Shown piece after piece: positions 728 to 19,012 of a stretch of DNA of 34,585 nucleotides. The translations under genes were made by a program, and so were the position numbers. The notes beneath the pieces were generated by a model, which was given only the letters and a program-made list of their open reading frames with translations, did no database searches and had not been told where the DNA came from. Positions within the stretch are counted from its first letter, which is position 1, and every line of letters starts with the position of its first letter. This stretch comes from Mariprofundus sp. EBB-1 (GTDB taxonomy: Bacteria; Pseudomonadota; Zetaproteobacteria; Mariprofundales; Mariprofundaceae), in assembly GCF_003665155.1 (NCBI RefSeq), contig NZ_RCFQ01000033.1:1-34585 (forward strand). Reading direction: 5' to 3'.

Positions 728-1528
728 TTGTTAAGAGGTGTGTTTGTGGCTGTTTTATGGTTGGTGGCATTTCCTGCTTCAGCAGCGGATTTTGGTGTGA
801 ACTGGGAACAAGCCAATATCTTTGTGCAGGGCGTTGGCAAGCAGCATCCTAAAGCTAAACATATCAGTTGGCTGTTTGCGCAAAAAGGGGCAAGAGTCGA
901 TGCGCAGCGTAACTTTCTGGATACGGTAAAAGAAATTCGTCTGGATAACGACAGCCTTGCTAGAGATGAAATGGTGGAGAGTGATCGGGTCAGAGAGGAT
1001 GTCAGTGCTCTGGTGAGCGGTTTACATGTAGTCAGAGTTAGAAGGAGAAAGGATTTATCTGTTGAAGTTTTAGTTCGGGTTACAATGGCGGAACTTTTTT
1101 CAGCACTTATCCCTGAACAGCGCTTCCGTGAACTGACTGCTGATGTTCAAGCGCAAAAGATGCATGGGGATGAAAGAAAATATAGTGGGGTTGTGATTGA
1201 TGCAACCGGAGTCTCTTCATTTTCTCCTTCATTGTTACCTTGGATTAAAGGGTTTTCAGGCTCCCGAATTTACCCGAATGCTCAAACACCTTATGACGTT
1301 GTTCGGAGCCATATGGCTGTTGCATATGCGTATGATGTGGAATCAGCAATGAACAGGCAGGAGCGCGTTGGTGTTCATCCACTGCTGTTGAAGCTGCCTG
1401 CAGTTTCTCAGGGTAGCCGCTCTGAATTACGACTGAATAAATCAGCTACGGAAAAGTTTCTAGCCGCGTTATCTGGTGGCGTGAATCAATCGGCTGCTGT
1501 CATTATTGTTTTGGACAGTGCAAACTAA
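728..1528 (+). CDS. Exported LPP20-family-like protein
   Basis: This 266-residue protein begins with a signal peptide (positive start, hydrophobic core, ASA cleavage site near residue 19) and has no lipobox Cys. Residues about 50-130 follow the LPP20 lipoprotein pattern: an Ala/Arg-rich helix (GARVDAQRNFLDTVKEIRLD), then a strand pair ending in VEVLVRVTMAELFSAL. The segment YSGVVIDATG near residue 152 matches the GLIIDARG segment seen in the same family. The start is TTG at 728, chosen because an AGGAGGG ribosome binding site lies about 9 bases upstream and the signal peptide begins there. Members of this family are envelope proteins of unclear role and often sit near FlgO/CsgG-like or caspase/CHAT genes. 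Here the gene opens the CHAT cluster. The family call is from residue patterns only. Confidence 0.6.
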   Translation: MLRGVFVAVLWLVAFPASAADFGVNWEQANIFVQGVGKQHPKAKHISWLFAQKGARVDAQRNFLDTVKEIRLDNDSLARDEMVESDRVREDVSALVSGLHVVRVRRRKDLSVEVLVRVTMAELFSALIPEQRFRELTADVQAQKMHGDERKYSGVVIDATGVSSFSPSLLPWIKGFSGSRIYPNAQTPYDVVRSHMAVAYAYDVESAMNRQERVGVHPLLLKLPAVSQGSRSELRLNKSATEKFLAALSGGVNQSAAVIIVLDSAN

Positions 1529-1650
1529 TAAAGCAAGAGGGTTCTGGAACAATCCAGAGGCAGAAAGAAAATTGCGAAAAGACCATTTTTGTCCTATAAC
1601 TGGTAAATGGTATCGGTTGCGCTGAGTTGATGAGTTTGGAGGGAGGGATA

Positions 1651-3963
1651 ATGAGTAAATGGGTACTACTGTTAATGGTTAGTACGCTGCTCTTAAGTGG
1701 GTGTGCAGGTCAAAAAGACGCTATCAATTTGGCTTATGGAGACCACTCCAAAGTACGCGTAGGGCATGAAGATCTTAACAAAAAAAATTCTTTAAATTTA
1801 ATTGCATTGAGTAACTTATGCCGTTCATATTACGTGGCCAAAGATTTCGCTCAATTTAAAATTTGTTCTCAAAGATATTTCTCCAAATTTCCTCGTGATA
1901 AAGTGATTCAAAAGAAAACTTTATTTGGTGGGATTCAAAACAATTATGATCAAAACCCTGAATATCACTACCAAATGCTTTCTTCAAATGCTCTCATGAG
2001 TTTTGAAGTCGAAGATTACAACAGCTCTATTGAATTTGCTGAAATGGCTGAAAAGCAAGCTATGAAAACTTTTCATGCTGAAGGTGCATTTGCATTAACA
2101 TCACCTGAAGATGGCCCACTCATGATAAAAGGTATGGCGTTCGCTAAACAAAATAATCGAACCAAAGCGATCAGCATCATAAATGATATGAAAAAGATAA
2201 CTCAATTTGGGCTACAGAACTGGATAGATAATAACGTATTGTCATCTAGTGCAAAAATTTATTTTGCACTGAGGGATTATAATAAAGCTTACAATGAAAT
2301 AATCCAAGTTGTTGATACTTTTGATGATAAATTAATTAAGTTTAAAAAAGAAAACACGGCTGAAACTTTACCATTTTATTTACTCCAACGATTTTACATC
2401 CATGCAATCTCAGCCTATAAAGTTGGTAAAATAAAAGAAGCATCAGCCAAACTGGAACACTTTTTATCTAGAAAGAATGCAAAGAATTTCACTGGTCTAT
2501 ATTCATTCGCACTATATTACCGTGCACTTATAGATTTAAATGCGAACAAACAATCTATTGCAATAAATCGGTTAATGCTCGCCATCAAACTACTTGAAAA
2601 ACAACGAAGCAGTATTGCAAATGATGCGTCACGAATTGGTTTTGCCGGTGACAAACAAGAAGTATATTCAATGCTGGTTAAAACGTTGATGGATACAGGT
2701 CGATATGATGAAGCTTTTGCTTACGCTGAACGTGGCAAAGCTCGTGCGTTGGTAGATATGCTGGCTAGTAAGCAACAGTTTGGTAGCACCATTTCAACTT
2801 CTGAACAAAATAAGCTGTTAGCCCAACTTGATACTGCTGAAGCAAAAGACCTAGTAATTTCAGGTGATACTGAACGATCAACCACTCGAAGTATTGTAAT
2901 TAAAAACCGTGAAGCATTATCTCAACAAGCTCCTGAATTATCCTCTTTGGTAACGGTTGAAGCACCGGATGTGAAAGAGATTCAATCACTTCTACCCAAG
3001 GGTGAAACTCTGATTGAATACTACGGCTCTGGTGATGCTCTGTTCGCATTCGTGGTGACAGCGAATGGGATTCGCGGTGTGAAGCTAGAAGGCAAGGGGC
3101 TACAGGCTGATGTAACCGCATTCCGGGAAGCTATCCTTAATCCGAAAGGCAAAGCTTATCAGCAGAGCGGTAAGCGCCTCTACAATCGCTTGATTGTACC
3201 AGTGACATCGGGAATCAATACAAAAAACATCACCATTGTTCCACATGGTGCCTTGCACTACCTGCCGTTTGCAGCACTGAGTGATGGCAATCAATTTCTG
3301 ATTGATCGCTACAAGCTGCGGGTTTTACCATCTGCATCAGTGATGAAGTTCCTGAAACAGCATCAGAACAAGGCGGGTACGCTGCTGGCCTTTGGCAACC
3401 CTGATCTTGGTGAAGCCAAATACGATTTGCCCTTTGCACAGAAAGAAGCAGAGAAGATTGCCCGTGAAACAGTAGGTGCGAAATTGTTAGTGAGAGGGCA
3501 AGCTACCGAAACCGCTGTAAAAACTTACGGTAATAGTTTCCGTTATCTTCACTTCGCATCCCACGGTACATTCGACGCCGAGAAGCCTCTGAACTCAGGC
3601 TTGTTGCTCGCCAAGGATTCACAAAATGATGGCATGCTCACGGTGGGTGAGCTCTACGACCTCAATCTCAATGCCGATCTGGTTACGCTGTCTGCTTGTG
3701 AAACAGCCCTCGGCAAGGTTGCCAACGGTGATGATGTGGTCGGCTTCACTAGAGGTTTTCTCTACGCAGGAGCCAGCTCTATCGTATCCAGTCTGTGGCA
3801 GGTGGATGATGCCGCCACGAGTGATTTGATGACCGGCTTCTACGCAAATCTTGGCACGACAGATAAACGTTCGGCTTTGAGAAATGCGCAGCTATCTACC
3901 AAAGCGAAATATCACCATCCATATTACTGGGCAGCATTCCAGATTACTGGAGCAGTGCAGTAA
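1651..3963 (+). CDS. TPR-CHAT domain lipoprotein (putative caspase-like peptidase)
   Basis: The 770-residue product starts with a lipoprotein signal (MSKWVLLLMVSTLLLSGC, lipobox L-S-G-C at Cys18). ATG 1651 is chosen over the in-frame TTG at 1627 because a GGAGGGAGGGA ribosome binding site sits just before it and the signal peptide begins there. Residues about 75-370 are helical repeats of TPR type. The C-terminal ~300 residues are a CHAT domain (caspase HetF associated with TPRs) with the His-Cys dyad intact: HFASHG with His638 and LSACETALG with Cys683. Further CHAT signatures are GDDVVGFTRGFLYAGA and SSLWQVDD. CHAT proteins are caspase-like cysteine peptidases, mostly cytosolic, and a lipid-anchored one would act in the periplasm. 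Base composition changes inside the gene: AT-rich to about base 2950, then near 50% GC. The substrate is unknown. Confidence 0.85.
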   Translation: MSKWVLLLMVSTLLLSGCAGQKDAINLAYGDHSKVRVGHEDLNKKNSLNLIALSNLCRSYYVAKDFAQFKICSQRYFSKFPRDKVIQKKTLFGGIQNNYDQNPEYHYQMLSSNALMSFEVEDYNSSIEFAEMAEKQAMKTFHAEGAFALTSPEDGPLMIKGMAFAKQNNRTKAISIINDMKKITQFGLQNWIDNNVLSSSAKIYFALRDYNKAYNEIIQVVDTFDDKLIKFKKENTAETLPFYLLQRFYIHAISAYKVGKIKEASAKLEHFLSRKNAKNFTGLYSFALYYRALIDLNANKQSIAINRLMLAIKLLEKQRSSIANDASRIGFAGDKQEVYSMLVKTLMDTGRYDEAFAYAERGKARALVDMLASKQQFGSTISTSEQNKLLAQLDTAEAKDLVISGDTERSTTRSIVIKNREALSQQAPELSSLVTVEAPDVKEIQSLLPKGETLIEYYGSGDALFAFVVTANGIRGVKLEGKGLQADVTAFREAILNPKGKAYQQSGKRLYNRLIVPVTSGINTKNITIVPHGALHYLPFAALSDGNQFLIDRYKLRVLPSASVMKFLKQHQNKAGTLLAFGNPDLGEAKYDLPFAQKEAEKIARETVGAKLLVRGQATETAVKTYGNSFRYLHFASHGTFDAEKPLNSGLLLAKDSQNDGMLTVGELYDLNLNADLVTLSACETALGKVANGDDVVGFTRGFLYAGASSIVSSLWQVDDAATSDLMTGFYANLGTTDKRSALRNAQLSTKAKYHHPYYWAAFQITGAVQ

Positions 3964-4024
3964 TGATCGTTAACTGTTTACCTCGGATATTGTATCATTG
4001 ATGTTAACAGGCCATCATTAACAA

Positions 4025-4567
4025 ATGGTGTGTGAGTATAGAGTTTTAGCTTTTTTAGTGGTGTTGCTGGCTTGTTCAGCATGTACGATTCAGCCGAAGG
4101 TGGAGCTGGTGAGCGAGCAGACAGCTTTGGAAAAGCAGTTGCTGGGCCGTTTTGCTGAATTGGATGAGAAGGCACTGCTAATCGCTCCCATGCGCCATGG
4201 TGCTCATGCTGGTAAGGTGGCTACAGATTATAAGCGTGCTGTTGCTGGGCGCGCTTTTCGTTTTGATGAACTGGATGGCTGGATCAAAAAAGGCTGGTTG
4301 CTGGAAGATGAGAGTGGCGTGATCCGGCAGCGTCGTGGGGCGAACGTCACTCTGGTGGGAAAGATGAAGAAGCGATTTGAACGTTTGATCAAGCAGGAAA
4401 ATGGTGATCGGGCGATGATTATTGATCATGTGATTCATTACAGTGCAGATTTCCATGATAGCGATAAAAGTTCTTTGGCACAGCTATTCCATCAGTTACG
4501 TCTTAAAGAATTGCCGACTGGCGCATGGGTTCATGCTGATGGGCGAGACTTTCAGAAAAAGGAATGA
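4025..4567 (+). CDS. DUF1318-like lipoprotein
   Basis: A 180-residue protein with a lipoprotein-type start. The likely modified residue is Cys20 (Cys17 is possible); Cys20 is favoured because the following TIQPKVELVSEQTALEKQLL resembles the conserved start of DUF1318 lipoproteins (a TalE-QilG motif). The rest is charged and probably helical, with FDELDGWIKKGWLLEDESG and ENGDRAMIIDHVI recalling the 'GwiGE..dG' and 'eN.dR' segments of YdbL/DUF1318 proteins. There is no clear catalytic motif. The last four bases (ATGA) overlap the start of the giant CHAT gene, so the two are probably translationally coupled, which suggests a joint function such as an outer-membrane tether. The ribosome binding site is weak. 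The family assignment is by eye. Confidence 0.55.
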   Translation: MVCEYRVLAFLVVLLACSACTIQPKVELVSEQTALEKQLLGRFAELDEKALLIAPMRHGAHAGKVATDYKRAVAGRAFRFDELDGWIKKGWLLEDESGVIRQRRGANVTLVGKMKKRFERLIKQENGDRAMIIDHVIHYSADFHDSDKSSLAQLFHQLRLKELPTGAWVHADGRDFQKKE

Positions 4568-7500
4568 GAAAGCTATCGCTACTGATCTGTTTCTTTTTTG
4601 CTCTTGTTGGAGTTGCAACAGCCGAGTCCATTGAAAAAAATAGTATCACGATCATAGAAACAGGGGAGGGTAATAGTTTTTCTCCACTACCTTTGCCAGA
4701 TGGGCGGTTACTTTTTGTAACAGATAGGGCGGATAATCTTGATCTGGCTATCTGGACTCCGAATCAACAGGTTCAAATGTGGGAGCAGCATCCTGCCGAT
4801 GATAGTGGACCTGCTTTGTTGCCTGATGGTAAAACAGTTGTGTTCATGAGTGATCGTGGGGACACGTATCAAACATGGTGGCAGCGAGCATTATCGAGTG
4901 AATCAGCCAAAGCTTTGGCGAAAGCGCCAGAATCCAGACTCGGGAAGTATCATGTCATTCACCCGTTCGATAGCAATGGCGATGGGCAGATAAACAGTCT
5001 TGATGCGGGCTGGATAGTGGATACTGCAAATGGTAAACCACTGACGCCATTGTCACTTGATGCTGATGATCCCGTTGTGGGTCTGCAGGGTGTGTTGTGG
5101 TTTACCATTCTGCAAGATGGCATACGCCGTATCGCATATATTGCTGCTCCCGATTCTGATATTGAATCTAATTACAAACTTGCGAATTGGTTACAATGGC
5201 ACTTATTGCAAGGGGTAAGAGATAATGAATCTGATGCTGACCAGCGTGATCTGATCTGGGATGCTGGTATTCATAATCCATCTGTTCGTGGCAGTTCTGA
5301 ATCAACAGCTCAGGGTAGATGGCAGCAGCTACGCGCTAGATTATTTCATTCAAACACCAGTCTATCCGAAACTAAGGCTATGCAAGGGCTGAGAGATGCG
5401 AGTCGCATGCATGACCCTTATGCCGACCGTATGCACTATGATCTGGCTATATGGCTGAAGCGTGTCGGGCGTGGCACAGATGCGTTGCAACAATTAGCAC
5501 AGATATTCGAACCTGCACTGCGTGAGCGGGGCGGATTGATACGTGCGAATCTGCTAGTTGCATCAGGCCATGCAAAACTGGCGCTGGAGGAGTTGGCAGC
5601 AGACGAGTTTTCTGACTATCTGTTTCCTGAGCTTCAATCATTATCCAGTTACGTGCTGCAACAGCTATCCGTGGATCAGCATGAAATAGAAGTACTGCGC
5701 CAGTTGTATCAGACGAAATCGGGTGAGAGTCCTGATTATCTTCAATCGCTTTGGCAATTGAGATTAATAGAGCTCTATCTGCAGGGGGGGGCATATGAAG
5801 CAGGATTGTTTCTCTGTGGTAAAGCTGTTCACCCGGCGCTTAAAGCTCAACGGAAACAGCTGCGTCTGCAGCTATTAAGCAGTGTGGCTGGCGAAAAAGA
5901 GCGGCGGGGTATGTTGAATGAAGCGCTGGACCTTACCAGAGAGGCACTTTCAATTGATATTTTGGATACACATACTGCCCGGCTCCATTTTCTAATTGCA
6001 TCAAAGCTGGATCGCACTGCGGCAGAGGGGCAGTGGTGGCGTCAACATCTTGGGATAAAACATGGGGCCGAACATGGCTATATTGAAGCATTGATTCTAA
6101 CTTACGAAGGGCAGTTTAGTAAGGCAGAGAAGCAATTGGTTCACGTGGTGCAGGAGCGTCCGGAATTATGGGCTGCACATCAGACACTGGGTTGGTTGCT
6201 GGAAAAAGGTAGTAAAATCAACAGACAGCGGCAGGCCCTTAAATCATACGAAACAGCCTATGCTCTGGCTACAGATCAGAAGGCAGATCAATACGATATT
6301 GTTACGCTTCGTAGCAATATTATTAACCTCTCTTTTAATCTGAAATTGTACAACAGACAACTGCAACTGATGCAACTCTGGCGCACAGAAGAGATAGATA
6401 TAGCGGTTCCGTTCCTGATGCAGGCGGCACGCGCCTGTTTTAAACTGTCGCGCGGCAGCGATGGTTTGGTCTGGCTCGATATGTTGCCTGATAGTTTAAA
6501 CACAGCAGATAGGAATCTCGCCCTTCGTTTGCGTGCTCTACTGGCCGATCAAAGTGGTGATCATGCATCATCCATTCGTGCCTTAAGCTTGCTTATTGCC
6601 GATCCTGACCTTGATAAGTCGTTACGTGTTCGCCTGCTGTTGAGTCGTGCGTTGGCTTATATTCGCACTCAACAACTGGAATCTGCTATGCAGGACTTGA
6701 ATGAAGTATCCCGATTACCTGCTGTGAGTGATAAAACAGGTCTGCTGCGTATCGATGGTAAGAAACTGCCTTTTGATGCCGCATGGGTGGCTTCATCACT
6801 GCAGGCTGAGATGCAAATGCAAAATCAATCGTGGTTTGCATTGGCTAAATCACTGAAACACAAACGTGCCAATAAAGCCGCTTCGGAACGTTTGCAGGGA
6901 CTAACTTACCAGAATCTTGCCTATGCTTATATCCGGCAGGGAGCATGGATGCAGGCACAAAAACAGCTCGCATCTGCTGAGCTATTGGTAAAGAAGAGTG
7001 ATACGAAACTGTTCTCTCAACTATTGTGGATGCGCTTGCGTCTTAATGCAGCTTTGGGGCAGGTGATCAGTGAATCTGAGTTACTGTTCCTTGCTGAACA
7101 ATTTAAAGGTGATCTGAAACGTTCGCTAGAAATAGAGCTGTTAAAGCTATCCCGGGTTGTTGAAATAGCGGTCGATGCAACAGTGCAGAGTAGCATAAGT
7201 GATACCCGGCATATCAGGCAGAGCATAGCAGCGTGGAACAGCCTCAGACAAAAATCCGAGCGTGAATACCCGGAGCTTAGTGTCTGGATTGATGTCAATT
7301 ATTTCAGGTGGCTGCAACTGTATGGCAATGTTGAGGCAATGGCGTTGGTTCAACAGCGCATCATATCGAATAGACAGGCGAATCCTTGGCTGAAATGGTG
7401 GTTTGAGCGTACACAGGGTAACAGACAGCAGGGCGATCAACATCGGATTGATACTTTGATTACAGAGACAGACGTGGTTCTTCCCATGCATATGGAGATG

Positions 7501-10443
7501 TTAAAAGAGTATTATCAAGGTCAAGCCCTTGCCCTTCTTAGACAGAAAAAACAGAGAGATGCTATTCATACCTTATTTGAAGGTGAGCGAAATCTGACAA
7601 AGCTGCGTCATCAGGCTGTTAAAAGCAGGCCACTAGCGTCCTCTGCATCACTGGATCGTTTGCGTAGAGCGTTGAGAGCGGATGAAGCGATGCTGCTGAT
7701 TTGGCCTTCTTCAGCTGGCGAGGAAGAGAGTGAATTATGGTGGATGGATTATGATCACCTGATATACAAACATACCAAAGGTAGTGCGGCCACCGATTGG
7801 TATGCAGCTATTAAAGAGTGGCAGGGCGGAAAGAAGCGTTTGTTTGTTAGTTTTGTCAATCCTGCCATAGAAGATTTTGAAGCGTTCCGACAGCTAGTCA
7901 ACGGACAGGAAATAGTATTGTCACCCACGCTGCTGCATGCCGCAACGATTGGCCGTCTTAGCTCTGATCAACCATCTTTATCAGATGAATCATGGCAGGT
8001 TCAGCTATGGCAGCGGGCAGATGCCAGTCTGATGGACTGGAAATGGGAGCTTAAAGCTGGCATGTCATCATATAGGGATAGAGGCTGGACGGCAGCAGTT
8101 GATCATTTTGAAAGAGCGATGGTTTCATTGAGTCCTAAGCGGAAAGAAAAACTGTTACAATTAATCGCTAAGGCAGCGCTCAATGGAGGTGTTGAGGAGC
8201 GAGCATTATCTATATTTGAGCATCAGAGCAAGCTATCTGACGCTTTGACATTGATGCAGTTGAAACTCAAGGCAACACTGTTGGGTAAACAGGGATCACC
8301 GGTCACCTCTGCAAATATCTGGGCTGATTTTTATCAGCGGAGTAAACGCTGGTCAGACCGGGCTACTGCGGCAAATGCTTATGCTTCGATGGCATTGCGT
8401 GGAGCTGTGCCTCACGCGCAGGCCGATAAGATGCTTGCCGGAGCAATTTCTGCATTGCCTCTTCAAGCAGAGACAATGCAACTGACGCTGTTGATGAACC
8501 GTATGGCCTTAATGAATCGTTTCCAGGTAGAAGGGGGATGGGAGCAGTTTAATATATTAGCGAAGCAGGCCGAACGTCTACTTCAAGGTAAACATGGCAG
8601 TTCACGTTTATTGCATCTGAAATTGATGCGTATTGAGGCTGCGTGGAAATATGGTCACTTTGAAGGCTTACTTGCGTCACTGGATCAACTGCATCATCAG
8701 ATACCAGAGCATGATGCTTTGCGTTTTGATCTGGCTAATCTTACGGCCTTGATTCAGATGTCGATGGGTATGAGAAAAGAGGCAAGTGATAGTTTTTTAG
8801 TCGCTCGCCATGCACTTACCTGGGTGGAACCCGCTTTAGTGAGTGAACGGCTGGCTGGCTGGCATAATAATATGGGACGGCTGGAACGATCTGCTGGTGA
8901 TGAAAGTCGAGCGCTGGCTCATTTTCGTGCTGCTATAGATATTGATCACCGGCGTGGTGACCGGATTGGTCTGTTATATGATTGGAAAAACTTGGCGCGC
9001 TTACTGGTGCAATCTGATATGAAACATCGCAGAGAAGGTATGAAGTTATTACAGAAGGGGTTTGAGCAGGCGCAGTTGATGGAAATCCCTCAGTTGGAGC
9101 TTGAGTTTATCTTTATGTTGTTGGTGATAGATCAGGATGCGATAGATAAAAATAACAAGCATGAGAAATATTTTGACCGTTTTACCTATTTGATTAAAAC
9201 ACTCAATGATAAGAAAATGAACTGGGCACTGCACTGGCTCAAGGCAGAATCTTATATCCGTCAACATCAGCCGGAAAAAGCGATTGCTTCACTTCAGCGT
9301 TCTATATCCATGGTTGTTTCAGATAAGGTACCGTTTTCCCGCGATGATCTGCAATTTCATCCGCTGCGAGTTTTTGAACGTGCGATTGCTCTGCTTATAG
9401 AGCGTGATCCTCAACAGGCGCTCAAACTGGCCGAGAAGGCGAATCGATTAAGTCTGAATTACCGTTTTAACAGCTCTAACCTGGAGGCTAACCTGGATGG
9501 AGCTATTCCCGATATGCATGGCAGAACCCGTTTGGTCTATTTTAGCGGTGTTAAGCGAAGTTGGTGTTGGATTCTGAATGCCGATGGTATCAAAACGTTG
9601 GACCTTAAAATTGGTTATAAAGTGTTGGAAGCGCAATTGGCTAGCCTGAACCGTGCTACTTCAAACAGATTGCCGGTAAAGAGAGCGGCTATGCGTCTGA
9701 CGAAACAGATATGGTTACCACTCTCAGGCTGGTTGCCTGAGAGTGGTGATATTGAAGTGGTGGCCATTGGACCGTTGGAACGACTCTCTTTTGCGATGCT
9801 TATAAGCAAAGGGCAGTGGCTGCTTGATAAGTATGCATTCAGTTACCCTTTATCTCTTTATAGCGGCTCTTCTAAGGTCTTCGCTACAAGTCGAATGGCA
9901 TTAGTCTCACATATAGGAAAAGCTGCACAGCCTTTACTGCTAGCTTCGCAAGAAGTTGAGGCGGTTAACGATTTTAGCCACCTGACGGGTGATCGCATTT
10001 TCAATCCAACTGAGGATTCTTTTATTACCCAATCCAATCGTTATGGGTGGGTACATCTGGCAAGTCATATTGGTGTAGCAGACAATCAGCCTCGTTTTTC
10101 CTACCTTGGTCTTGAACAAGGCGATGGTGGGGATGGGCAATTGCATGTTCACGAACTGCTAAAACAGAAATGGAAGATGAACACTATCGTATTAAGTGGT
10201 TGTGGTAGCAGTAGTGGCGAGAATCCTTTTGCTCAGGCTTTCCTGCTTGCAGGAGTCAATCAGACCGTTACTAATATCTGGAAGGGGAATGATCTATCGC
10301 TTTCGTTGTTGATGAAGGGATTTTATCGCCAGCTGGAGAGTACGCGCTCTGTTACTAAAGTATTACAACTCTCTCAACAGTGGATGCGAAAACGCCATCC
10401 CGATCCTGTAGATTGGGCAGGAGTAAGAGTGAGTTATCATTGA
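4564..10443 (+). CDS. Giant exported propeller/EF-hand/TPR/CHAT protein
   Basis: This 1959-residue protein has a cleavable signal peptide (MRKLSLLICFFFALVGVATA) and no lipobox, so it is probably periplasmic or exported. Residues about 30-115 contain TolB/PD40-like propeller blades (SPLPLPDGRLLFVTDRAD; GPALLPDGKTVVFMSDRGD). Residues 136-147 form an EF-hand-type loop (DSNGDGQINSLD). Long helical repeats of TPR type fill about 240-1000. Residues about 1025-1130 resemble the N-terminal half of a CHAT domain, followed by a second helical-repeat block (1160-1600). A full CHAT domain ends the protein, with HLASHIG (His1835) and LSGCGSSSGENPF (Cys1880) as the catalytic pair. The usual 'SACET' is altered to 'SGCGS', but both catalytic residues remain. 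The gene overlaps the upstream lipoprotein gene by 4 bases. The substrate and any calcium dependence are unknown. Confidence 0.8.
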   Translation: MRKLSLLICFFFALVGVATAESIEKNSITIIETGEGNSFSPLPLPDGRLLFVTDRADNLDLAIWTPNQQVQMWEQHPADDSGPALLPDGKTVVFMSDRGDTYQTWWQRALSSESAKALAKAPESRLGKYHVIHPFDSNGDGQINSLDAGWIVDTANGKPLTPLSLDADDPVVGLQGVLWFTILQDGIRRIAYIAAPDSDIESNYKLANWLQWHLLQGVRDNESDADQRDLIWDAGIHNPSVRGSSESTAQGRWQQLRARLFHSNTSLSETKAMQGLRDASRMHDPYADRMHYDLAIWLKRVGRGTDALQQLAQIFEPALRERGGLIRANLLVASGHAKLALEELAADEFSDYLFPELQSLSSYVLQQLSVDQHEIEVLRQLYQTKSGESPDYLQSLWQLRLIELYLQGGAYEAGLFLCGKAVHPALKAQRKQLRLQLLSSVAGEKERRGMLNEALDLTREALSIDILDTHTARLHFLIASKLDRTAAEGQWWRQHLGIKHGAEHGYIEALILTYEGQFSKAEKQLVHVVQERPELWAAHQTLGWLLEKGSKINRQRQALKSYETAYALATDQKADQYDIVTLRSNIINLSFNLKLYNRQLQLMQLWRTEEIDIAVPFLMQAARACFKLSRGSDGLVWLDMLPDSLNTADRNLALRLRALLADQSGDHASSIRALSLLIADPDLDKSLRVRLLLSRALAYIRTQQLESAMQDLNEVSRLPAVSDKTGLLRIDGKKLPFDAAWVASSLQAEMQMQNQSWFALAKSLKHKRANKAASERLQGLTYQNLAYAYIRQGAWMQAQKQLASAELLVKKSDTKLFSQLLWMRLRLNAALGQVISESELLFLAEQFKGDLKRSLEIELLKLSRVVEIAVDATVQSSISDTRHIRQSIAAWNSLRQKSEREYPELSVWIDVNYFRWLQLYGNVEAMALVQQRIISNRQANPWLKWWFERTQGNRQQGDQHRIDTLITETDVVLPMHMEMLKEYYQGQALALLRQKKQRDAIHTLFEGERNLTKLRHQAVKSRPLASSASLDRLRRALRADEAMLLIWPSSAGEEESELWWMDYDHLIYKHTKGSAATDWYAAIKEWQGGKKRLFVSFVNPAIEDFEAFRQLVNGQEIVLSPTLLHAATIGRLSSDQPSLSDESWQVQLWQRADASLMDWKWELKAGMSSYRDRGWTAAVDHFERAMVSLSPKRKEKLLQLIAKAALNGGVEERALSIFEHQSKLSDALTLMQLKLKATLLGKQGSPVTSANIWADFYQRSKRWSDRATAANAYASMALRGAVPHAQADKMLAGAISALPLQAETMQLTLLMNRMALMNRFQVEGGWEQFNILAKQAERLLQGKHGSSRLLHLKLMRIEAAWKYGHFEGLLASLDQLHHQIPEHDALRFDLANLTALIQMSMGMRKEASDSFLVARHALTWVEPALVSERLAGWHNNMGRLERSAGDESRALAHFRAAIDIDHRRGDRIGLLYDWKNLARLLVQSDMKHRREGMKLLQKGFEQAQLMEIPQLELEFIFMLLVIDQDAIDKNNKHEKYFDRFTYLIKTLNDKKMNWALHWLKAESYIRQHQPEKAIASLQRSISMVVSDKVPFSRDDLQFHPLRVFERAIALLIERDPQQALKLAEKANRLSLNYRFNSSNLEANLDGAIPDMHGRTRLVYFSGVKRSWCWILNADGIKTLDLKIGYKVLEAQLASLNRATSNRLPVKRAAMRLTKQIWLPLSGWLPESGDIEVVAIGPLERLSFAMLISKGQWLLDKYAFSYPLSLYSGSSKVFATSRMALVSHIGKAAQPLLLASQEVEAVNDFSHLTGDRIFNPTEDSFITQSNRYGWVHLASHIGVADNQPRFSYLGLEQGDGGDGQLHVHELLKQKWKMNTIVLSGCGSSSGENPFAQAFLLAGVNQTVTNIWKGNDLSLSLLMKGFYRQLESTRSVTKVLQLSQQWMRKRHPDPVDWAGVRVSYH

Positions 10444-10491
10444 TGTTAAGATAAGTGTTGGGTACTTTCAAATTATTGGTGGGGCTAAATC

Positions 10492-10857
10492 ATGATGGCA
10501 TTGTTTAAAGCTGTTCTACCGGCTACATTTATATTGGTGGTGTTCGTTACGGTGCTATTGCTGCAGCATCCAAAGGCTGCAATTTATGCGGACTACGTCA
10601 GTTTGATGGAGTCTACTGCAGTTCAGAGAGTTCTTCATGACCCTAATCTCACGCATGAAGAGGCAGACCTTAAAGCGATGGAGCTTATAGAGAGTGTCGT
10701 TAGTTTTGTGTCTTCACCTTATAGTCTTGATCGTAAGCTTCATCGATTGGATATGAATACATTGAAGCGTATTGCACCTCAAGTTATTGCCCTGCAGCAG
10801 GCGGGTGAAGATCTAGAGTCATATGTCATTATTGATGCAAAGGTGGTGCCTGAGTAA
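10492..10857 (+). CDS. Small single-pass membrane protein, unrecognised
   Basis: A 121-residue protein with one N-terminal hydrophobic segment (about residues 5-24, ending LLLQHP) and a soluble, probably helical remainder facing the periplasm. I do not recognise the family. There are no Cys residues, no lipobox and no catalytic motif. It starts 48 bases after the giant CHAT gene, behind a GGTGGGG ribosome binding site, and ATG 10492 is followed directly by a second ATG that could also serve. Its place at the end of the CHAT cluster suggests it could be an accessory, inhibitor or substrate, but that rests on position alone. Confidence 0.6.
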   Translation: MMALFKAVLPATFILVVFVTVLLLQHPKAAIYADYVSLMESTAVQRVLHDPNLTHEEADLKAMELIESVVSFVSSPYSLDRKLHRLDMNTLKRIAPQVIALQQAGEDLESYVIIDAKVVPE

Positions 10858-11008
10858 CAGACTTACGACTTAGATTAAGGGTGATTGTAGACTGTTCAAC
10901 CTGAAATTATACCGTAAAAATAGACATGTAGCGCATGTTTGGGTAATGTGGTTTTGTATCATTGTTCATGGTTATCATAATTGCTTTATATTGATAAGGA
11001 GTAGGTTG

Positions 11009-11605
11009 ATGGAAAAGTCATTAATGGATGTGATGAATGACTATCTTAATCAAGGCATTGATCCGACAAGCAGAGAGGCGGAGATATGGCGGGAGTTTGG
11101 TAAACGATTTGCTATCCTCGTCATTGATTCCACTGGTTTTACCCGGACTACGAACGAGTTTGGTATTATCTACTTTCTCTCTAAATTGGCACAAAAAAGA
11201 AATATCACCATTCCTATCATCCAAGCATATGACTGTGAAACTTATATTACTGAAGCAGATAGTTTGATTGCGTTGTTCCCAAATGTGAAAAGTGCATTTA
11301 ATGCAGTGTTGGAAATTAGCGATGCCCTGAAACAAAAAAAATTAATGCTGACACCGGATGAACCATTTCGAATCTGTGCGGGTATTGGTTATGGTGATTT
11401 GTTGGTTACAGGTGAACACGGGGCCTTCTTTGGGCCAGAAATGAATATGGCCTCAAAGCTCGGAGAAGATACTGCTGATGCTGACGAGTTAATGTTAACT
11501 GATAGTGCATATGCAGAACTGGATGCAAAAGCTCAGTTGAGCTTCAAGAAAGGTTCAAGTCATGCATCTGGAAACGATATTCCATATCATATTATGCAAA
11601 TGTAA
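11009..11605 (+). CDS. Class III nucleotidyl cyclase-like domain protein
   Basis: The 198-residue protein is essentially a single class III cyclase homology domain. ATG 11009 is chosen over ATG 10946 because AAGGAG lies about 7 bases upstream and the earlier start would add an unrelated stretch. LVIDSTGFT (Asp40) matches the first metal-binding motif, EADSLIALF (Asp84) the second, and GIGYGDLLVTGE plus FFGPEMNMASKLGEDT the later strands, with the transition-state Asn at 146. The usual transition-state Arg is Lys150, and the purine-specifying Lys before the second Asp is absent (Ile80). It may make a cyclic nucleotide with unusual specificity, or may only bind. There is no membrane segment or regulatory domain. 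It lies 151 bases downstream of the small membrane protein, so it may have its own promoter. Confidence 0.7.
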   Translation: MEKSLMDVMNDYLNQGIDPTSREAEIWREFGKRFAILVIDSTGFTRTTNEFGIIYFLSKLAQKRNITIPIIQAYDCETYITEADSLIALFPNVKSAFNAVLEISDALKQKKLMLTPDEPFRICAGIGYGDLLVTGEHGAFFGPEMNMASKLGEDTADADELMLTDSAYAELDAKAQLSFKKGSSHASGNDIPYHIMQM

Positions 11606-11803: not shown

Positions 11804-11880
11804 TGGCGCACCCTACAGGATTCGAACCTGTGGCCTGCAGCTTCGGAGGCTGCCACTCTATCCAGCTGAGCTAAGGGTGC
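11804..11880 (-). tRNA. tRNA-Arg (CCG)
   Basis: Read on the minus strand, the 77 bases fold as a complete tRNA with encoded CCA. The acceptor stem is GCACCCT/AGGGTGC, the D-arm is GCTC-GAGT, the anticodon stem is GCAGC/GCTGC around loop CTCCGAA (anticodon CCG, reading CGG codons), and the T-arm is ACAGG-TTCGAAT-CCTGT. All stems pair, apart from one weak D-stem position. The gene reads away from fabI. Its 3' end abuts the phased repeat cluster, the usual place for integration of mobile elements. Confidence 0.95.
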
Positions 11881-11919: not shown

Positions 11920-12067
11920 TGCTATTGTTTAACGGCTATAGAATAACTCAGTATATCTTCAAAATCTCACGTCGAACCCTAATGAGGGTAAGAGAAAAAT
12001 GATACTGCCTCGTTGAATGGGTAAATGATTGTAAGCCTGTCAGGGCACAACCCTGATGACCCTAGCC

Positions 12068-12112
12068 CTCCGAAGCCGAAGGCCAGTGGTTCGAATCCAC
12101 TAGGGTGCGCCA
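12068..12112 (+). pseudogene. 3'-half tRNA-Arg(CCG) remnant / possible att site
   Basis: From the anticodon loop (CTCCGAA) through the T-arm and acceptor 3' strand to CCA, this 45-base stretch is nearly identical to the 3' half of the tRNA-Arg gene at 11804-11880, but in inverted orientation. The T-stem is different yet still paired (AGTGG/CCACT instead of ACAGG/CCTGT), so it descends from another functional tRNA-Arg allele and is not a recent copy of the neighbour. Upstream there is no matching anticodon 5' stem, D-arm or acceptor 5' strand, so it cannot be a working tRNA. 3'-half tRNA fragments are a hallmark of tyrosine-recombinase attachment sites. Confidence 0.7.
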
Positions 12113-18253: not shown

Positions 18254-19012
18254 ATGAAACGAATCAATTGGAATATAATAGTGATTGCGAGTCTGTTTGC
18301 AGGGCCAGTACCTCAGGCATCGGCTGGTTGGATGGATCAGGTGGGAGGCTTGCTTCAGGATTCGGGCATCACGCAGCCCGCATCACCTGCTGCATCTTCA
18401 ATCGCTGCTTTGAGTCATTCGGATATGGTTGCCGGTTTAAAAGATGCGCTGAAAGTTGGTTCGGAGAGTGTGGTTGCTCAGTTGAGCAAAGCTGATGGAT
18501 TTAACAAGGACAAAGCTATTCATATTCCATTGCCGAAAAATTTAGAAACGGTGAAATCAGCACTCAATACCGTTGGTATGGGATATATGATGGATGACTT
18601 GGAGTTGCGCTTAAATCGTGCTGCAGAAGCTGCCACTCCGAAAGCCAAACGCATTTTTGCTGATTCCATTAAGTCTATGAGTATTGATGATGCAAAAGGG
18701 ATACTCAATGGCCCGGATGATGCTGCCACGCAATATTTTAAAGGTAAGATGTCAACGCCGCTATCCAAAGAGATGCGCCCGATTGTTACCAATGCATTGA
18801 ATGAGGCCGGAGCGGTTCAGGCTTATGACAGTGTGATGGGTCAATACCAGTCATTGCCTTTCATGCCCGATGTGAAAGCCAATCTTACCCAGCATGTGGT
18901 TGATCTCGGTTTGTCGGGTATTTTTCACTATATGGCTGCTGAAGAAGCCGCTATTCGTAAAAATCCTGTTAAACGCACAACTGATATATTGCAAAAGGTG
19001 TTTAGTCGTTAG
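18254..19012 (+). CDS. DUF4197 exported protein
   Basis: A 252-residue protein with a signal peptide (cleavage near QASAG, residue 25), followed by the DUF4197 domain through to the C terminus. Family segments are VAGLKDALKVGSESVVAQLSKADGF, IHIPLPKNLETVKSALNTVGMG, LELRLNRAAEAATPKAKRIF and the Phe-rich end DLGLSGIFHYMAAEEAAIRKNPVKRTTDILQKVF (whole family length). The function is unknown; members are periplasmic and helical. The start follows a GAGTGAAAG purine run 42 bases after exeB, so it may be in the same transcript. Confidence 0.88.
   Translation: MKRINWNIIVIASLFAGPVPQASAGWMDQVGGLLQDSGITQPASPAASSIAALSHSDMVAGLKDALKVGSESVVAQLSKADGFNKDKAIHIPLPKNLETVKSALNTVGMGYMMDDLELRLNRAAEAATPKAKRIFADSIKSMSIDDAKGILNGPDDAATQYFKGKMSTPLSKEMRPIVTNALNEAGAVQAYDSVMGQYQSLPFMPDVKANLTQHVVDLGLSGIFHYMAAEEAAIRKNPVKRTTDILQKVFSR

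Follow-up and report, generated by a model that had tools for sequence, protein, structure and literature searches.

What might caspase-like proteins do on the far side of the cytoplasmic membrane? CHAT and caspase-like proteins have mainly been studied as cytosolic regulators or immune effectors, and the question is raised by a gene cluster of Mariprofundus sp. EBB-1 that encodes two CHAT-domain proteins with apparent export signals. The cluster lies in a stretch of 34,585 nucleotides (nt; RefSeq assembly GCF_003665155.1, contig NZ_RCFQ01000033.1), hereafter the window. The original prediction, made from the sequence of the window, had read the cluster as a periplasmic proteolytic surveillance or processing system with possible cyclic-nucleotide output. 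We find that the larger CHAT protein (the giant), a lipoprotein encoded immediately upstream of it and an AsmA-like protein form a well supported module, the mechanism of which we infer. Of the original prediction, the exported CHAT proteins and the dedicated lipoprotein hold, while the role given to a small membrane protein falls and a cyclic-nucleotide output is weakened.

The organism, a relative of iron oxidisers, belongs to the Mariprofundales within the Zetaproteobacteria, and the window is contig C27 of its 2.88-Mb, 63-contig assembly (G000), to which contigs C21 and C41 also belong. Comparisons were made within a class-level sample of 78 genomes and a phylum-level sample of 398 Pseudomonadota genomes, and export features were judged from the sequence by simple rules.

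A conserved partnership of giant, lipoprotein and AsmA-like protein

The list of open reading frames (ORFs) gives six ORFs in the cluster, all on the plus strand and laid out as first described, encoding from 5' to 3' an LPP20-like protein, a lipid-anchored TPR-CHAT protein, a DUF1318-type lipoprotein, the giant of 1959 amino acids (aa), a 121-aa membrane protein and a cyclase-like protein. The core pair comprises the following features.

4025..4567, plus strand: DUF1318-type lipoprotein, 180 aa; its stop codon and the start codon of the giant overlap
4564..10443, plus strand: giant exported protein, 1959 aa, with predicted signal peptide, PD40 (TolB-like) segment, EF-hand-like loop, long TPR arm and C-terminal CHAT domain (Pfam/NCBIfam)
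4969..5004, plus strand: EF-hand/dockerin-like loop DSNGDGQINSLD, residues 136-147, kept in three of three Mariprofundales giants and in G138
9682..10425, plus strand: CHAT domain of the giant (PF12770, 2.5e-28), with His1835 (10066-10068) and Cys1880 (10201-10203)

The giant scores 93.3 bits against PF12770 (E=2.4e-26; cut-off 24), and its N-terminus resembles a signal peptide ending in ATA-ES. The overlap said to couple lipoprotein and giant is present (ATGA, 4 nt, 4564-4567), and the pairing is conserved far beyond the window genome. Within the class, the giant is found in 3 of 78 genomes (G000, G038 and G039), the lipoprotein profile matches the same three, and the Mariprofundales AsmA-like gene occurs in exactly these three as well. 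Among the 398 Pseudomonadota genomes, lipoprotein and giant are each found in 14; 13 genomes have both, one has the lipoprotein alone (77% complete), one has the giant alone (57% complete) and 383 have neither (Fisher p about 2e-22, not corrected for phylogeny). The giant count comprises giant architectures and contig-cut remnants, the shorter CHAT proteins of G042, G105 and G183 being excluded. Both genes span the same six bacterial families, and the lipoprotein thus appears dedicated to the giant, as had been proposed.

The kinship of the lipoprotein was established through its relatives. The window protein matches no Pfam family at E<1, DUF1318 (PF07027) included, and is related at 24-29% to the proteins of L065, L068 and L072, which do exceed the PF07027 cut-off. 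E. coli YdbL aligns to the profile of the family (E=8.8e-5) over most of the length of YdbL, including the C-terminal end, and we regard the window protein as a divergent representative of a genuine family of DUF1318-type lipoproteins because the lipoproteins of distant giants exceed the PF07027 cut-off in all three cases scanned. These distant giants are about 2560-2760 aa long, with TPRs and an intact CHAT domain, and carry signal-peptide-like stretches directly ahead of the PD40 repeats in all members inspected; their PD40 region aligns to that of the Mariprofundales giants (hhalign E=1.1e-9), and the CHAT domain is likewise common to both.

The third partner is a large AsmA-like protein, whose gene precedes those of the lipoprotein and the giant, in that order, in G159, G162, G168, G138 and G129, and also in G207, where the contig is cut at both ends. 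These proteins measure 1128-1277 aa where complete, and those that retain their start have a predicted membrane helix at the N-terminus. In G000 and G038 the AsmA-like gene and the giant lie on different contigs. Four of six AsmA-like proteins scanned with NCBIfam match TamB or GspN, which are AsmA-type models, at their N-termini (E 2e-6 to 2e-3), the best being a 779-aa protein encoded by C21 in the window genome (2e-6) and the protein of G129 (2.4e-5).

Lipid-anchored TPR-CHAT paralogues

The other CHAT protein of the window has two features.

1651..3963, plus strand: predicted lipid-anchored TPR-CHAT protein, 770 aa, with lipobox LSGC, His638 and Cys683
3160..3951, plus strand: its CHAT domain (PF12770 match), with canonical HFASHG and LSACETALG motifs

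The best start is ATG 1651, which has a strong ribosome site upstream and yields a clean lipobox; counted from there, His638 and Cys683 fall where they had been placed, and the distinction between one lipid-anchored CHAT protein and one with a signal peptide stands as far as such motifs can tell. The protein scores 244.5 bits against PF12770 (E=2e-72; cut-off 24). The genome encodes three such paralogues, on C27, C21 and C41. Their last approximately 440 residues, the CHAT half, are 77-83% identical, and four-fold degenerate sites there match at 28-43%, which is near random, so that recent gene conversion was ruled out as the source of the similarity. The first approximately 290 aligned residues, the TPR half, are 24% identical. 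The pattern indicates that the CHAT half has long been under purifying selection while the TPR half diverged freely, and the simplest reading of the pattern is probably that several inputs feed one shared output or substrate.

A proposed envelope sensor-effector module

The conserved partnership points to a previously undescribed envelope-monitoring or processing module. Gene content, export features, the partnership itself and the paralogue pattern were observed; from these we infer that the parts form a physical complex, that the AsmA-like protein serves as a lipid bridge, that the TPRs control activation and that some target is proteolysed. Our tentative preference, held at somewhat less than even confidence, is for a sensor-effector module of three parts that is linked to lipid bridges of the AsmA type. 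The AsmA-like protein would be anchored in the inner membrane and probably bridge both membranes, and the DUF1318-type lipoprotein would probably sit in the outer membrane. The PD40 segment and TPR arm of the giant, part of whose TPR solenoid was modelled at a predicted local distance difference test (pLDDT) score of 70-85, might bind this assembly and read its state, and release or rearrangement of the arm would then switch the CHAT domain. Once switched, the domain would cut an envelope target or, in the Mariprofundales, perhaps only bind it, and a proteolytic role in the periplasm may be proposed. In the window genome, the three lipid-anchored paralogues would add parallel inputs into one common output. 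In its boldest form, which we consider rather unlikely, this proposal describes a new envelope checkpoint: a caspase-fold CHAT effector, carried by a PD40/TPR arm and held by the DUF1318 lipoprotein to an AsmA-type inter-membrane lipid bridge, would sense the integrity of the bridge or the outer membrane and trigger proteolysis outside the cytoplasm, and some lineages would have expanded it to several CHAT lipoproteins, each with a sensor of its own, that share one output.

Several points weigh against the sensor-effector module. The co-occurrence statistics ignore phylogeny, and in family f21 the lipoprotein and the giant lie 1.7-9 kb apart. The AsmA-like label is supported but not proven, since there are TamB/GspN matches at the N-termini but no Pfam model, PF11739 included, matches these proteins and their profile against YdbH is not significant. 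The structure models obtained for the CHAT parts were too poor to support a fold search, no substrate came to light, and the active-site context of the Mariprofundales giants is non-canonical, so that the giant may not cut.

Two further observations concern these proteins. Around the split lipoprotein and giant genes of family f21 (L154, L155 and L156), sensor-kinase/response-regulator-like genes are found in places, as judged by eye. Residues ~1015-1150 of the window giant (about 7606-8013), between two TPR arms, may hold a degenerate second CHAT-like half, hinted at by hhalign (E 0.006-0.01) and a similar order of helices and strands, with low confidence.

The wider locus and a possible role in assembly or processing

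The strongest rival explanation arises from the genes around the module, including the following gene of the window.

728..1528, plus strand: LPP20-like protein, 266 aa, predicted to be exported; TTG start, signal peptide end ASA-AD, strong Shine-Dalgarno sequence AGGAGGG

This protein has homologues among the LPP20-like genes of two clusters, C21 and G039:C93 (25-37%, with E as low as 1e-23). Its Pfam likeness is weak: against a cut-off of 25.9 bits for LPP20 (PF02169), it scores 12.4 bits and its relatives 18.9-19.9 bits. The genes of G039:C93 run lipoprotein, giant, LPP20-like, TPR, MltC-like transglycosylase, YfaZ-like, FecR, GNA1162-like/beta-helix, LPP20-like, FecR and AsmA-like. Contig C21 of the window genome carries most of these families, together with a lipid-anchored CHAT paralogue and a DUF4384 protein, and G038:C25 retains GNA1162-like, LPP20, FecR and AsmA-like genes in order. 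An extended locus with LPP20, FecR, GNA1162-like and MltC-like genes is thus conserved in G039 and G000:C21 and partly in G038. The original prediction had overlooked these second-contig genes and their AsmA-like companion, along with the two CHAT paralogues, two WD40-caspases and the changes to the active-site motif in the giant.

With lytic transglycosylase-like, GNA1162/beta-helix, FecR, LPP20-like and YfaZ-like proteins in the extended locus, the CHAT proteins might instead mature or trim an exported product made by it, such as an envelope polymer, a surface fibre or a secreted protein. The AsmA-type relatives TamB and GspN, to which the N-terminal matches point, act in export or assembly (GspN: PMC12802150). 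However, neither a secreted substrate nor an export channel is obvious in the extended locus, and the published paper on the Zetaproteobacterial stalk cluster (sfz) mentions no FecR, lipoprotein, TPR, CHAT or AsmA. Overall, we consider such a processing role a serious contender, if an unlikely one. A link of the module to the sfz cluster was rejected, as the gene names searched for are absent from the stalk-cluster paper.

Signs of a possible genomic island and a possible role in defence

Downstream of the cluster lie two tRNA features.

11804..11880, minus strand: intact tRNA-Arg(ccg) (ARAGORN), a diverged copy with its 3' end facing the CHAT cluster
12067..12112, plus strand: remnant 3' half of another tRNA-Arg(ccg), matching the tRNA of G012 at 95.7% over 46 nt

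The congener G012 has an intact tRNA-Arg(ccg) upstream of FabI, of which the window genome keeps just the 3' 46 nt (12067-12112) in the window; a 5' piece of 41 nt identical to the G012 tRNA-Arg lies on C21 near the paralogue cluster (L129:12842-12882). CHAT genes are also found near the same tRNA in G014 (3' piece) and G067 (intact tRNA), and the region is a possible island hotspot. On C21, the sister cluster encodes a WD40-caspase (C14) protein of 1091 aa (L128:8355-11630) and an OmpA-WD40-caspase protein of 1653 aa (L128:13606-18567), both with signal-like N-termini.

These features invite an explanation in terms of envelope-level defence or self-killing, in which exported CHAT and caspase proteins would sense phage or another attack and kill or lyse the cell. 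The tRNA fragments beside the cluster suggest a genomic island, the distribution is patchy (3 of 78 class genomes), the paralogues combine diverged sensor halves with a common effector half, two WD40-caspase genes stand in the sister cluster, and CHAT effectors are known from conflict systems (PMC10907252). We nevertheless hold defence to be improbable, as neither a PADLOC system nor a nuclease, STAND NTPase or pore-forming partner was seen in the cluster, no integrase was found on C21 or C27, and the constant partners of the giant are envelope lipoprotein and AsmA-like genes.

The altered active site of the giant

His1835 and Cys1880 of the giant are located as claimed, and both are invariant in the orthologues of G039 and G038. 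Their surroundings have changed in all three Mariprofundales giants, HG having become HI or HA and AC(E/Q)TG having become (G/S/A)CG (for example, HIG..SGCGSS and HAI..TSCGAT), and the giants of G000 and G039 form long branches in the CHAT tree. Proteolysis by the window giant is doubtful because of this altered motif, and cleavage is the least secure step of the proposed mechanism. The Mariprofundales giant could thus have lost its peptidase activity and serve as a structural PD40/TPR platform; cutting would then fall to the lipid-anchored paralogues or not occur at all. Yet the His and Cys have been retained although overall identity among the three orthologues is as low as 28-29%, which argues for selection on the dyad, and the distant giants, like the lipid-anchored CHAT proteins, keep canonical HG and SAC(E/Q)T motifs. 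A dead scaffold seems to us about as improbable as a defence role.

Neighbouring genes probably outside the module

Two features remain from the original cluster.

10492..10857, plus strand: 121-aa single-pass membrane protein, a truncated orphan of a ~217-aa protein, probably outside the system
10946..11605 (likely start ATG 11009), plus strand: cyclase-homology protein, with no export signal recognised

The 121-aa protein had been suggested as a substrate or inhibitor of the CHAT proteins. This idea fails because the gene encodes a shortened, orphaned version of a ~217-aa protein, the full-length relatives of which lie in apparent cytochrome-oxidase (terminal-oxidase) clusters, judged by eye from neighbouring genes; the family is matched in 41 of 78 class genomes, mostly genomes without CHAT. 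The cyclase-like gene fares little better. No Pfam match to class III cyclases (PF00211) was obtained for the window protein, and its class III fold rests on the profile of its relatives, which aligns to a CHASE2-cyclase domain (E=1.6e-7), a fold likeness of the family; in the window protein the substrate Lys is gone and the transition-state (catalytic) Arg is replaced by Lys. Across the class, the gene correlates with CHAT presence (5 of 6 genomes; p=3e-5 without correction for phylogeny), and close relatives occur in five other genomes, none beside these genes, so that it adjoins the giant only in the window genome. Loss of these residues, absence of linkage elsewhere and the apparent lack of an export signal all weaken the suggested cyclic-nucleotide output. 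That all six genes are unrelated neighbours is nonetheless very improbable, as chance adjacency is true of the 121-aa protein, and probably of the cyclase-like gene, but is contradicted for the core pair by the lipoprotein-giant pairing in six families and the co-occurrence of the AsmA-like gene.

Elsewhere in the window, the contig opens with a fragment of an IS200-like (Y1) transposase (1-618), which is fused in frame to an unrelated membrane-protein-like tail and the other half of which is absent from contig C21, and positions 18254-19012 encode a DUF4197 protein (PF13852, E=6e-75) with an N-terminus suggestive of export.

Comparison with known systems

In the literature searched, subscription literature aside, we found no account of an exported CHAT protein that works with DUF1318 or AsmA-like partners, and searches of PDB sequences gave no useful relative. 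Taking the three genes as a joint unit gives a context to DUF1318, the role of which is little documented in that literature, and the near-obligate partnership, if true, would put caspase-type control at the supply line of outer-membrane lipids.

The TPR-CHAT proteases, namely Csx29 of Craspase and HetF, share with the giant a TPR arm and a CHAT domain with His and Cys. The CHAT domain of the lipid-anchored protein matches the Csx29 model across the protease part at 63.9 bits, against 300 bits for full-length Csx29. The module differs in having no Cas7-11 or CRISPR context and in its predicted signal-peptide export, PD40 segment and DUF1318 and AsmA-like partners. HetF works with the divisome and is anchored by a transmembrane helix (PMC8406250), whereas the giant is predicted to be exported by a signal peptide. 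Exported bacterial metacaspases (Peptidase_C14) with WD40 or TPR, which have N-terminal helices that are possibly signal peptides (PMC3501461), similarly join a caspase-fold effector to repeat-type sensors, and the sister cluster has two genes of this kind; the module has CHAT in place of C14, and fixed lipoprotein and AsmA-like partners. Within the same class, exported or membrane-linked CHAT genes are also associated with two-partner secretion and DUF928 (L058, ShlB and DUF928) or with a CHASE2-cyclase (L126), but their CHAT domains fall on separate tree branches and no DUF1318 or AsmA-like partner was seen in these loci.

An analogy in gene order is offered by the lipid-bridge operon ydbH-ynbE-ydbL of E. 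coli, which encodes an AsmA-like bridge, an outer-membrane lipoprotein and a DUF1318 protein. YdbH functions in outer-membrane lipid homeostasis (PMC8593681) and YnbE acts together with it (PMC11784454). In both cases an AsmA-like gene is followed by a lipoprotein/DUF1318 gene, and the lipoprotein profile of the module aligns to YdbL. The AsmA-like proteins of the module are not YdbH by sequence, lipoprotein and DUF1318 domain are united in one protein and, where the E. coli operon has no protease, the module adds a CHAT giant.

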